DNA from: an uncultured Ignavibacteria bacterium
Lineage (GTDB): Bacteria > Bacteroidota > Ignavibacteria > Tepidaquicellales > OLB5
Direction of reading: 5' to 3'
DNA length: 64,000 nucleotides
Assembly (NCBI GenBank): GCA_937873695.1
Contig: CALMYL010000010.1
Span: forward strand, 1-64,000
Positions 1 to 58,486 of the stretch are shown in pieces. The notes beneath the pieces are model-generated. The model was not told where the DNA came from. It searched no databases and saw only the letters and a program-made list of their open reading frames with translations. Numbering within the stretch: the first letter of the stretch is position 1; every line of letters begins with the position of its first letter. Both the position numbers and the translations under genes were made by a program.

Positions 1-166
1 ACTTTGATATGAATAGTGATAGTGACATAACTCAAAAAGCGACCTCCCCAACCCCTCCAAAGGAGGGGCTTGAAAAGCAAAAGACTTTGATATGAATAGT
101 GATAGTGGCATAACTCAAAAAGCGACCTCCCCAACCCCTCCAAAGGAGGGGCTTGAAAAGCAGAAG
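1..166. repeat. Tandem 83-bp direct repeat carrying palindrome copies
   Basis: Two head-to-tail units of 83 bp (1-83 and 84-166) differ at only two positions. Each contains the palindrome cccctccaaaggagggg preceded by gacctccccaa (41-69 and 124-152). The second unit runs into the DUF559 gene and would be translated as its N-terminus. The repeat may continue past the left edge. Confidence 0.9.
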
Positions 167-595
167 CCTGGCTATATTACGGCTAATCCGTTGAGCTATA
201 TTATCATCAAGCAGATCAGAGATGAACTGAAAAAGAACCCTACTGAAGCAGAAATCATAATTTGGGAATATTTAAAGAATAAAAAGACTGGACACAAGAT
301 TAGAAGACAGCATATAGTTGATAATTTTATTGCTGATTTCATTTGTCTACCTAAAAAACTAGTTATTGAAATTGACGGTAAGATCCATAAATTTCAAAAA
401 GAATATGATCAAATGAGAACTGAAAGACTCACCGAGTTGGGATTTAAAATTATAAGATTCACAAACGAAGTGGTTAAAGCCAAACCCAATGAAGTCTTTT
501 CACAGATCAAGCATATACTTGATGATACCGTAGATCCAAACTCCCCTCCTTTGGAGGGGCTGGGGGAGGTCAAAGAAAAGGATTACAATTACTGA
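92..595 (+). CDS. DUF559 (VSR-like) endonuclease-domain protein
   Basis: This 167-residue protein carries a DUF559 domain, a PD-(D/E)XK-type fold related to very-short-patch-repair nucleases. Visible hallmarks are NPTEAEIIIWEYLKN (from residue 49), KIRRQHIVDNFIADF and the nuclease core LVIEIDGKIH, followed by RTERLTELGFKIIRFTN. Its substrate is unknown. The first 30 or so residues and the last 20 (NSPPLEGLGEV) are translations of the flanking palindromic repeat, not part of the domain. The only ATG start lies inside the repeat at 92. A TTG at 191 would begin just before the domain but has no clear ribosome-binding site. It stands alone, without a methylase partner, so a restriction role is not supported. 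Confidence 0.8.
   Translation: MNSDSGITQKATSPTPPKEGLEKQKPGYITANPLSYIIIKQIRDELKKNPTEAEIIIWEYLKNKKTGHKIRRQHIVDNFIADFICLPKKLVIEIDGKIHKFQKEYDQMRTERLTELGFKIIRFTNEVVKAKPNEVFSQIKHILDDTVDPNSPPLEGLGEVKEKDYNY
543..571. repeat. Inverted copy of the palindromic repeat at the nuclease 3' end
   Basis: The sequence is the reverse complement of the copies at 41-69 and 124-152 with about two mismatches. It lies inside the last codons of the DUF559 gene, so the gene is bracketed by opposed repeats. Confidence 0.85.
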
Positions 596-12755: not shown

Positions 12756-12782
12756 GTTTGAATAAATTTATATTTTTATACT

Positions 12783-12817
12783 CCCCTCTCCTTTGGAGAG
12801 GGGCCGGGGGTGAGGTC
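12783..12817. repeat. Dispersed palindrome, inverted orientation
   Basis: cccctctcctttggagagggg (12783-12803) is followed by ccgggggtgaggtc. This matches the reverse complement of the copy at 24655-24692 almost exactly. It lies between the stop of the gene at 12828 and the start of the gene at 12755. Confidence 0.85.
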
Positions 12818-24654: not shown

Positions 24655-24712
24655 GACCTCACCCCCGGTCCCCTCTCCTTAAAGGAGAGGGGTGCCAAGA
24701 GGCGGGGTGAGA
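24655..24712. repeat. Nested palindrome between hpnC and hpnD
   Basis: gacctcacccccggt leads into cccctctccttaaaggagagggg (24670-24692), and a further ggcggggtgag arm pairs with the outer ctcacccc. The outer and inner dyads make a large hairpin. It is the same family as at 12783 and 57266. Its effect on the operon is unknown. Confidence 0.85.
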
Positions 24713-47290: not shown

Positions 47291-47457
47291 TTATAAAAAT
47301 TTACTTTTAATAAAACGCTAAAATAATGAAAAATTTCAACACTTTCAAGGCTTGAAAAGCAGGATAAATAAAAGCTTTAACCACGAATTTCACGAATTTT
47401 TTAAATATTGTGATTCCGTAGAATCTGGTTACCTATCAAATAGTGTTTTTTGTGTAG

Positions 47458-47477
47458 CCCCGCCCTTCAGGGCGGGG
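47458..47477. repeat. Palindrome of the tagccccg...cgggg family
   Basis: Perfect 20-bp palindrome preceded by tgtgtag. Related copies lie at 21039, 48309 and 57419. Confidence 0.85.
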
Positions 47478-47966: not shown

Positions 47967-48308
47967 CTGTGAAAAACAACAAAGAAAAGGAAAATTAATT
48001 TTAATGCGGTTATTATGGACATATAAAATAAAGGATAAATTTGAAATAAATATGCCTTCTGCATACTACTTGTAATATAATATATGCTAATGGCATTGTC
48101 AAGTCAATCAGTAAGTCACATTCTGCGAAGCAGTGCCTGCAAGCCAAAGAGCTGCTTAAAACAGGGGAAAAAATCAAAACCTTCCTTCGCTTGCGCTCAG
48201 TAAGGCGTGGCAAAAGACTACCAACTTACAAAAAACGCAAGTCGTAGCCAAGGCTCTAAGGCTCAAAGGTGCACAAAGAATCAAGAAAATATTACCATTT
48301 TTGAGTAG

Positions 48309-48328
48309 CCCCGCCCTTTAGGGCGGGG
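48309..48328. repeat. Palindrome of the tagccccg...cgggg family
   Basis: A 20-bp palindrome preceded by gagtag and followed by ggttag, in the same form as at 47458. Confidence 0.85.
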
Positions 48329-56176: not shown

Positions 56177-57331
56177 TCAGGGGGTGATGTTTTTTATCGT
56201 AATCTTTCCATCCGGGGAGATATCCAGCGGGGTATCGGGGAAATCGTTTTGGGTCATAGCTTTCATAAGATTTACAGCACCATAATCATCATCATAGACC
56301 GGAAAACCACGCCTTATCTGTTTAAAAGGAAAAATCCTGCCGTGGGAGAAATCGCCGGTTTTTGTAATGTAGAGTTTTAAAATCGGAGCGAGTCCCAGGT
56401 TACCGCTTAAGCCAAACTTTCCGTATGTGCAAAAGTTACCCAGCGAATACGCGATGAATTTATTTTTGTAAAGCTCCACACCGCGCGGCACATGTGGTCC
56501 CTGCCCGAAAACAATATCCGCTCCCGCGTCTATCATATCGTGGGCAAACTCGTAGCAGTTGCCTCTATCTTCGCCAAGGTAAAACTCGCGTTTGCGGTTT
56601 ACATGTGTAGCCCCGCTGCCCTCGGCTCCCCCATGGAAAGCCACAATGAGGATATCACACTCTTTCCTCAGCTCACTTACAATTTTGGCGGCTTTTTTGT
56701 GATCGTTGATGCTTAGCGTTCCGTTATTGGGCGCAAAGCCGGTAAACCCGAATTTAATTCCATCCTTAATGAATACGGCAGTTGGCGCGCTTATTTGCCC
56801 GGCATATTTTATGCCGTATTGCTTGAGCGTGTTCTGTGTTGAGGTGCGGCCAATATCACCCATATCACCGCTGTGATTATTGGCGAGGTTCATCATGTCG
56901 AAGCCGGCATCCTTTATGTAGCCCGCGTAATGCTCAGGCATGCGGAATGCCACGCAATTATCGGGATTGGCGCACACCTTAGGTGTGCCGCCGGAGTTGA
57001 GCAGTGTGCCTTCAAGGTTGCCAATTGTCACATCGGCAAGCTCCAGGAATTCTTTGGCTTGGCTGAGTATATCGCGCCCGTCACCGGGCGGCAGCGATGC
57101 CGCGGAGGGGTAGTTGGTGCCCAGCATCATATCCCCCACCATGATTATGGAGTAAACGGAGTCGGGGTTGGTTTGGGTGGTGGTGGTGGGTTTTTCGTTT
57201 TTATTTTTTTCGGTTAAGGTGTTATCTTTGGTGCATGAAAAAGCCAGCAAACAAAGCAGTAAAATGACCTCACCCCCAACCCCTCTCCCAAGGAGAGGGG
57301 GGATGATAATTTTCTTTAATTTGGCTTTCAT
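56177..57331 (-). CDS. CapA/PgsA-like lipoprotein with a repeat-invaded signal peptide
   Basis: This 384-residue CapA-family protein has a metallophosphatase-like fold: MVGDMMLGTNYPS, NLEGTLLNSG, NLANNHSGDMG, FHGGAEGSG and DIVFGQGPHVPRGVELYKN. The signal peptide is MKAKLKKIII, then PPLLGRGVGGEV, then ILLLCLLAFSC with lipobox AFSC. The middle 12 residues are the palindrome repeat read in frame. Without them, the remainder is a normal lipoprotein signal. CapA proteins help make poly-gamma-glutamate or other polymers; the function here is not known. Confidence 0.8.
   Translation of the reverse strand: MKAKLKKIIIPPLLGRGVGGEVILLLCLLAFSCTKDNTLTEKNKNEKPTTTTQTNPDSVYSIIMVGDMMLGTNYPSAASLPPGDGRDILSQAKEFLELADVTIGNLEGTLLNSGGTPKVCANPDNCVAFRMPEHYAGYIKDAGFDMMNLANNHSGDMGDIGRTSTQNTLKQYGIKYAGQISAPTAVFIKDGIKFGFTGFAPNNGTLSINDHKKAAKIVSELRKECDILIVAFHGGAEGSGATHVNRKREFYLGEDRGNCYEFAHDMIDAGADIVFGQGPHVPRGVELYKNKFIAYSLGNFCTYGKFGLSGNLGLAPILKLYITKTGDFSHGRIFPFKQIRRGFPVYDDDYGAVNLMKAMTQNDFPDTPLDISPDGKITIKNITP
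57266..57300. repeat. Nested palindrome inside the CapA signal-peptide codons
   Basis: gacctcacccccaa leads into cccctctcccaaggagagggg, the same family as at 12783 and 24655. It is 35-36 bases long, so it adds 12 codons in frame. Confidence 0.85.
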
Positions 57332-57383: not shown

Positions 57384-57580
57384 AGGGCTGAAGCCCTTTT
57401 TTTGTTGTTTCCTTGGATCCCCGCCATGAATGGCGGGGTTAGGACCGTCGTGATTTTTGTCATGCTGAACTTGTTTCAGCATCCTGGCTTTTTTGCCAGT
57501 CCCGCACCAGCGGGATGTCCCCCTACTCTATAATTTTCGGGTTTGGCAGCAGACCCTGAAACGAGTTCCGTTCCTCCACT
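57384..57580. repeat. Composite palindromic repeats
   Basis: agggctgaagccct (57384-57397), ccccgccatgaatggcgggg (57419-57438), and a longer piece with gctgaacttgtttcagc (57464-57480) pair in part with cctgaaacgagttc (57555-57568). tcccgcaccagcggga also lies inside. The 273-base gap holds no gene. Confidence 0.7.
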
Positions 57581-57604: not shown

Positions 57605-58486
57605 TTACAAAGTTTTTTTCTTCTGGGGTTTGCCGGTGACTTTGGCTTTTTCCATAAATGTTGTGGGCTTGCGGTAATACAAAAATGCACCCAGTCCAAT
57701 CAGCACAACGGAAATGAGCTGCGCTTCTGAGAGTCCGAGCATGTACCGCGGATTTAAGCGGATGAACTCTACCAATAGCCTTGATGCCCCTGAGAGCATT
57801 AAGTACAGCCCGAAGAGTTTGCCATCACCTAAAAATACGCTGCGCTTTTTCCACAGCAGCCAGAAGATGAGGCCGCCGATTATGAACTCATACATTGGTG
57901 TGGGGTGGCATAGAGTGTTATCCGGCACCACGCCGCCAAACTTGGCGGCAATATCGCTGCCACGGAACGCGACTGATGGCGGGAGCGTGCCTTTGGAATA
58001 ATCGGTGCCCCACGGTACCCATGACATGAACTCCGAGACGGGCAGGCCGTAGTCGCCATCACCCGAGAGGTGACAGCCAACCCTTGCTATGCCGTAACCT
58101 ATCGCCAGCGATGGCGCTGCCGCATCGCATACACGGAGGAACGGTACTTTCTTAACACGGGTGTAAATGTAAATCAGCGCAGTTGCGAGAATGAGTCCCC
58201 CGTAGAACGTTAGCCCCGCGGGCGAGAATAATCCTTCGGTGGAAAAGATCTGCGATGCCGGCATGGTGGAAAATGATTTCCATTCTTCGATGACATAGAG
58301 GAGTTTAGAACCGATGACTCCCCCCACCAGCGCGAGGAATGTTATGTTAACGGCTGCGCCTTCATCAAGCTTTTTGCGCTTGAACTCGCGCTGCAAGAGC
58401 CAGCTTGCCACGATGAAACAAATGCCCAGCATTAAGCCGTAGCTGTAAACAGGTATCGGCCCCAGTTGAAATAGTTTAGGAATCAT
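57605..58486 (-). CDS. lgt: Prolipoprotein diacylglyceryl transferase
   Basis: This 293-residue polytopic enzyme puts the diacylglycerol on lipobox cysteines. Motifs are YGLMLGICFIVASWLLQREF, SPAGLTFYGGLI, GIARVGCHLSGDGDYGLP and DNTLCHPTPMYE, with several membrane helices and a basic tail. Its start overlaps the upstream gene by 11 bases, so the two are coupled. Lipoproteins in this window (CapA-like, GSDH-like, 40250) depend on it. Confidence 0.9.
   Translation of the reverse strand: MIPKLFQLGPIPVYSYGLMLGICFIVASWLLQREFKRKKLDEGAAVNITFLALVGGVIGSKLLYVIEEWKSFSTMPASQIFSTEGLFSPAGLTFYGGLILATALIYIYTRVKKVPFLRVCDAAAPSLAIGYGIARVGCHLSGDGDYGLPVSEFMSWVPWGTDYSKGTLPPSVAFRGSDIAAKFGGVVPDNTLCHPTPMYEFIIGGLIFWLLWKKRSVFLGDGKLFGLYLMLSGASRLLVEFIRLNPRYMLGLSEAQLISVVLIGLGAFLYYRKPTTFMEKAKVTGKPQKKKTL

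Follow-up and report, generated by a model that had tools for sequence, protein, structure and literature searches.

Y1 tyrosine transposases (RAYTs) are the partners of GTAG-type REPs, and a RAYT gene together with its flanking REPs constitutes a REPtron. Palindromic repeats are also known within coding sequences. The Rickettsia palindromic elements (RPEs) described by Ogata and Claverie lie in frame in unrelated conserved protein genes as well as between genes, and are tolerated in housekeeping enzymes (PMC2229807, PMC10969869). Outside Rickettsia, in-frame and intragenic REPs tagged with GTAG or CGTC were reported from several phyla in 2013 by De Gregorio, Rocco and Di Nocera (PMC3733652); they are short hairpins with an unpaired terminal tag, they occur singly and as head-to-head dimers, and intragenic copies occupy genes for repair and RNA modification (UvrA, tRNA pseudouridine synthases). 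The same survey describes the CGTC repeats, whose tag may be CCTC or TGTC, as not associated with transposase genes. In-frame palindromic insertion in Rickettsia is thus known already, as are intragenic REPs beyond it; what is new here is the nuclease DUF559 as a candidate mover of hairpin-tail repeats.

The locus described here lies in a 64,000-nucleotide stretch of DNA from an uncultured Ignavibacteria bacterium, which we refer to as the window; its features are listed in Table 1. Genomes compared with it are numbered one per species, with G000 denoting this genome. The CapA-like protein begins MKAKLKKIII-PPLLGRGVGGEV-ILLLCLLAFSC, and its second segment is encoded by a copy of a palindromic element that we call R1. 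The plus-strand letters of this copy are GACCTCACCCCCAACCCCTCTCCCAAGGAGAGGGGG, comprising the tail GACCTCACCCCC and the hairpin CCCCTCTCCCAAGGAGAGGGG, and these 36 nt are exactly the 12 codons of PPLLGRGVGGEV when read in frame. An NCBIfam match of the protein to a lasso-peptide epimerase scored far under the cut-off, and that identification was rejected.

Table 1. Positions of the DUF559 unit, the R1 copies and the CapA-like locus in the window.
Feature	Position	Strand	Remarks
R1-related tail-hairpin repeat ACCTCCCCAACCCCTCCAAAGGAGGGG	42..68	+	Upstream of the window DUF559
DUF559 (putative Vsr-like nuclease) open frame	74..592	+	PF04480, E=1e-28; Pfam domain at 212-520
Second upstream copy of ACCTCCCCAACCCCTCCAAAGGAGGGG repeat	125..151	+	Same repeat as at 42..68
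Inverted copy of ACCTCCCCAACCCCTCCAAAGGAGGGG repeat	543..570	-	Just downstream of DUF559 domain; R1 model 20.5 bits
R1 copy	12778..12816	-	No conserved gene found across copy
R1 copy	24656..24697	+	No conserved gene found across copy
CapA-like (PGA_cap) lipoprotein gene	56177..57331	-	384 aa; PGA_cap E=1e-46; reading frame unbroken through repeat
h-region and lipobox ILLLCLLAFSC	57233..57265	-	Downstream of insertion
R1 palindromic element in CapA-like gene	57266..57301	-	R1 model 46 bits, E=1.5e-5
Signal peptide n-region MKAKLKKIII	57302..57331	-	Precedes insertion (upstream)
lgt	57605..58486	-	lgt-CapA order conserved in genus

An initial sequence-only reading of this DNA took the CapA codons to be an exact copy of repeats at 12783 and 24655. 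The architecture is indeed the same and the 36 nt do encode 12 residues, but the copies are only about 90% alike, with 3 mismatches in 33 positions for the 12783 copy. The further claim, that the repeat was inserted in frame in a lipoprotein signal peptide, is borne out by the intact frame and by alignment of the signal peptide with those of relatives: the 12 residues are absent from all 29 aligned CapA orthologues, whose homology in nearly all cases begins at query residue 21-25. The n-region is joined directly to the h-region in the orthologues from the genus, with no intervening residues, and the insertion is carried by one genome only. Signal peptides are weakly conserved, which leaves some room for the 12 residues being native, or for a misplaced start codon, with a coincidental match to the repeat. 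The match at the DNA level nonetheless spans the entire tail and hairpin, the aligned orthologues lack the residues, and dropping the upstream ATG leaves no charged n-region; we find this explanation scarcely credible, and regard insertion of a REP-like element in the CapA-like gene as very nearly certain.

Even with its insert, the protein still starts with charged residues, has a hydrophobic core of 9-10 residues and keeps the AFSC cysteine, which makes a functional lipoprotein signal with a longer n-region plausible. Translation and tolerance of the insert are probable: R1 is poor in stop codons (a mean of 4.3 of 6 frames are open, versus 3.3 for random 37-mers), the frame is kept and the n-region would merely be lengthened. 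The order lgt-CapA is kept in 11 genomes of the genus, and in the four closest relatives (L019-L022, L441) a DUF559 gene, absent there in this genome, lies between the two genes, which makes the gap an insertion hot spot. Immediately upstream of the CapA gene, at window 57458-57484, there is also a CGTC/TGTC-like palindrome, TGTCATGCTGAACTTGTTTCAGCATCC, with a CCCCGCCATGAATGGCGGGG hairpin beside it at 57419.

The tail of R1 is unpaired and reads ACCTCACCCCC or, together with a corresponding apical pair, CCCTCACC; a 9-10-bp C/T-G/A hairpin adjoins it, and the consensus is (A/C)CCTCACCCCC-NN-CCCCTCTCC-loop-GGAGAGGGG-AGCAA. One end is CCTC, invariant in 39 copies, and the other a variable AGCAA; the stem begins with C-G (or T-A and then C-G), 8-10 nt away from CCTC. 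Tail and apex are coupled, with a C-G apical pair in all seven C-tail copies and a U-A pair in all 25 A-tail copies (p=3e-7), and in one subfamily of four copies the outer pair has switched on both sides from C-G to U-A. Copies are either single (~40 bp) or form ~100-bp head-to-head dimers ending in inverted CCTCACC; all nine close pairs in G000 have this orientation, each pair being 95-123 bp long and its two copies 14-15 or 20-21 bp apart, and six copies contain a second palindrome inside the loop. The pattern CCTCTCCN{1,12}GGAGAGG is found at 53 places in the 3.78-Mb genome, versus one for a reversed control pattern, and so greatly exceeds chance; a covariance model built from 32 longer-loop copies recovers 52-58 full copies. 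All 13 genomes of the genus contain R1 (7-93 copies each), and its occurrence elsewhere in the class is sporadic. We also note an Argonaute-like ORF, recognised by eye, at L048 882-2387 (G000:C1:18881-20386), which adjoins a region (C1:21.7-25.4 kb) crowded with R1 and other repeats.

Candidate host genes were taken as open frames running through R1 copies and then compared with orthologues. The search for further in-frame copies that the sequence-only reading had proposed finds them, by orthologue alignment, in this genome's RimO (TRAM region), QueG, RlmD, acyl-CoA synthetase and RecN; among relatives, R1 is in frame in UvrA (G002, G011), UvrC (G002, G005, G008, G010) and homoserine dehydrogenase (G011). 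Presence and absence in RlmD, acyl-CoA synthetase, RimO, QueG, UvrA and UvrC fall in variable segments of surface type that have been hit repeatedly, and in QueG the site is occupied in nearly every species, each time by another repeat-like peptide. Intragenic copies occur on either strand and in three or more frames. RecN is the cleanest case, its site being empty in well-aligned DNA of G005, G001, G009 and G007 and occupied by R1 in G002; in G000 (L406) the RecN copy has a second palindrome, GATCCCGCTAAGCAGAAAAGCGGGAC, nested in its loop, and the frame is still open. No target-site duplication, which together with terminal inverted repeats would mark a MITE, could be read at this clean empty site; the flanks of most other intragenic sites are too diverged for one to be read, and no exact insertion rule could be extracted. 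The peptide NVDPAKQKSGTAK(S/N)A of the nested palindrome in G000 RecN recurs in RecN of G002 and G011, at a different site. Most hosts act in repair (UvrA, UvrC, RecN) or RNA modification (RimO, RlmD, QueG), a suggestive pattern that echoes the 2013 report of intragenic REPs.

Insertion of R1 into conserved genes is supported by the CapA orthologues without the repeat, together with the in-frame copies in other conserved genes that have empty-site orthologues. These patterns could in principle arise with no dedicated mobile enzyme, through replication slippage or template switching at palindromes and gene conversion among copies, which would accord with the divergence of most R1 copies, the nested palindromes within loops and the repeated hits on the same loops. 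The conserved tail, the fixed dimer spacing and the exclusively head-to-head orientation argue instead for a defined unit, and make slippage a decidedly unlikely source.

R1 resembles the Rickettsia palindromic elements in that its copies lie in frame in conserved genes and are absent from orthologues (CapA, RecN, RlmD, acyl-CoA synthetase, QueG, RimO). It differs in length, at ~40 bp or a ~100-bp dimer compared with 105-146 bp (about 150 bp in a 2024 review) for RPEs, which also have their own conserved peptides; it has no sequence relation to them, is read in several frames from either strand, and is found in Ignavibacteria rather than Rickettsiales. The length (~40 bp against 105-150 bp) and the hosts set R1 apart from the RPEs by descent. 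The sequence-only reading had likened the element to RPEs as an unrelated one able to spread; the behaviour and the lack of sequence relation agree with this, and the ability to spread is probable from copy number and presence/absence patterns.

R1 also resembles the GTAG- and CGTC-tagged REPs, in the short hairpin with an unpaired tail, the singles and head-to-head dimers, and the intragenic copies in repair and RNA-modifying genes. The CCTC end is a variant that the tag rule of the 2013 survey allows for CGTC repeats (PMC3733652), but in R1 it is followed by an 8-10-nt unpaired ACCCCC spacer, the stem starts with C-G where CGTC REPs have an 8-9-bp stem with A-T as the first two pairs, and the other end is AGCAA with no CCA-like tail; we therefore rejected assignment to the CGTC type. 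Nor is R1 a GTAG-tagged REP or part of a REPtron, since it ends in CCTC and AGCAA with no GTAG, and a scan of 35 Y1_Tnp loci (108 kb) gave a single weak R1 match, at 23.8 bits, with no strong match besides. Although its behaviour is alike, R1 is thus filed under neither family, lacking the GTAG tag, the RAYT association and the CGTC stem. The same Y1 survey bears on whether R1 is simply one more REP that depends on a RAYT for its movement, as GTAG-type REPs do, and as might be thought from its REP-like dimers and from the abundance of Y1_Tnp genes in the genus (8 in G000), these too having flanking inverted repeats. Given in addition that G004 gave no Y1_Tnp match for its 93 copies of R1, we regard a RAYT as an improbable mover. 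A GTAG-tagged palindrome of the RAYT-associated REP type, GTAGCCCCGCCCTT[CT]AGGGCGGGG, does share the genome with R1, with two copies at window 47454-47477 and 48305-48328.

DUF559 genes, by comparison, are present in all 13 genomes of the genus, and hairpin-tail repeats enclose the majority of them, as in hairpin-GGGGTGGTA, DUF559, TACCACCCC-hairpin; the window gene has the reverse arrangement, tail-hairpin-DUF559-hairpin-tail. Hairpins on both sides, within flanks of 260 bp, mark 20 of 30 DUF559 loci; the same holds for 10 of 29 Y1 loci but for just 3 of 51 loci of other genes (p=7e-9 for DUF559 against other genes), and the three control exceptions are CapA loci in genomes where DUF559 genes adjoin CapA. 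Against segments 800 bp away, the counts are 20/28 versus 0/28 in the genus and 17/26 versus 0/26 in a phylum sample of 148 Bacteroidota genomes, 78 of them with DUF559. Similarity between DUF559 proteins also covaries with similarity between their flanking repeats when loci with unrelated wider flanks (non-homologous loci) are compared (Mantel r=0.53 in the genus and r=0.29 in the phylum, with 0/2000 permutations each).

Some of these units lie within other genes. UvrC of G008 contains a whole DUF559 domain, in frame, between R1 copies, and the layout R1 (+), R1 (-), DUF559, R1 (+), R1 (-) recurs in three species (G005, G008, G010), the outermost copies being partial in places. The same linker has R1 repeats or a dimer in G002, G004 and G011, with the contig ending there in G004 and G011, where a DUF559 domain may also be present, and is short in this genome; contigs break at repeats within UvrC of G003, G004 and G011. 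Across the Bacteroidota sample and the genus, DUF559 is also in frame inside LeuRS (at two different sites), MetH, HsdM and HsdR. The leucyl-tRNA synthetase cases are L354 (G007), L411, L413 and L435, with hairpins near most of them, and in MetH of two genomes (L424, L429) the domain sits between the two B12-binding domains. At L359 and L369 the DUF559 gene is enclosed by an inverted repeat pair in the manner of a transposon. The association does not extend to R1 proper in G000, where none of the four DUF559 genes is so bracketed in spite of 58 R1 copies, the nearest being the R1-related repeat at window 42-570; the single DUF559 gene of the R1-rich G004 has flanks that match R1 only weakly (18 bits).

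The window DUF559 has a predicted structure with a mean pLDDT of 87 that superimposes on 3hrl (Z 15.1, 1.3 A, 93 aligned), on the homing endonuclease I-Bth0305I (Z 12.3, 2.2 A, 94 aligned) and on Vsr (Z 10.2, 2.2 A, 98 aligned), and a sequence profile matches 3r3p, a mobile-intron protein (E=3e-6). Nine residues do not vary across 58 DUF559 sequences, among them copies that lie inside host genes, as would be expected if nuclease activity were under selection. The PF04480 domain, the Vsr fold and the conserved acidic and His residues identify the 74-592 product as a predicted DUF559/Vsr-like endonuclease; PADLOC matches of DUF559 were weak. A DUF559 protein of Caulobacter, VsrA, is needed for the SOS response in a methyltransferase mutant, where it may cause strand breaks (PMC12907096).

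The organization is like that of a REPtron in that an enzyme gene lies between inverted palindromes whose family also supplies the dispersed repeats; it is unlike one in that the enzyme is a PD-(D/E)XK Vsr-fold nuclease rather than a Y1 HUH transposase, and in that the units may sit in frame in host genes. With the free-standing Vsr-fold homing endonuclease I-Bth0305I, DUF559 shares its fold, a profile match and the habit of a mobile gene in conserved genes, but it has no surrounding intron or intein and occurs as an in-frame domain or small gene bracketed by palindromes. The resemblance raises the main competing explanation, that mobile DUF559 genes home into palindromes spread by another agent, so that the association reflects target choice. 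The R1 repeats or dimers in the UvrC linker of G002, G004 and G011, where G005, G008 and G010 also have DUF559, suggest that repeats may have come first. Against homing, complete hairpins, and not a split palindrome, stand on both sides; at unrelated loci, the kind of repeat goes with the DUF559 subtype; and the L359 and L369 genes lie inside an inverted pair. We consider homing into pre-existing palindromes rather unlikely.

The account that we favour, and hold to be somewhat probable as a whole, is that R1 is a REP-like insertion and that a DUF559 nuclease, with the homing-endonuclease fold of Vsr and I-Bth0305I, mobilises the class of repeats to which R1 belongs. The autonomous form would consist of a DUF559 gene between inverted hairpin-tail repeats, and could itself occupy host genes in frame. 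The nuclease may nick or break DNA at or near its hairpin-tail units or their targets, and host repair would fill the break with a copy of the unit; single repeats and dimers of ~100 bp would derive from it and be non-autonomous. Gene insertions would survive if in frame and in loops or linkers. One R1 copy entered the stretch coding for the CapA-like signal peptide in the lineage of this genome. That DUF559 itself moves R1-type repeats is a more tentative part of the proposal, a serious possibility that falls short of probable. More tentatively again, DUF559 nucleases may be the mobilisers of a large, partnerless class of bacterial palindromic repeats, forming a second REPtron-like system with a Vsr/homing-endonuclease fold in place of a Y1 transposase, whose units and repeats insert in frame in essential genes across Bacteroidota.

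We found no paper linking DUF559 to palindromic repeats in the open-licence PMC literature, although a prior description elsewhere is possible, and the sections of the 2013 survey that were consulted report no such link (PMC3733652). The link bears on a question left open there, since its CGTC repeats have no transposase partner. DUF559 genes that stand between such repeats, have an intact nuclease fold and covary with the repeats in type would supply the first concrete candidate mover for palindromic repeats that are not RAYT-associated, such as those of the CGTC type and the Rickettsia elements, and the question of the mover becomes testable in culturable Bacteroidota. If the in-frame copies are translated, as appears probable, loops of core enzymes (UvrC, UvrA, RecN, RimO, RlmD, QueG, LeuRS, MetH) have been repeatedly remodelled by mobile DNA read in frame, which would affect protein annotation and studies of protein evolution.
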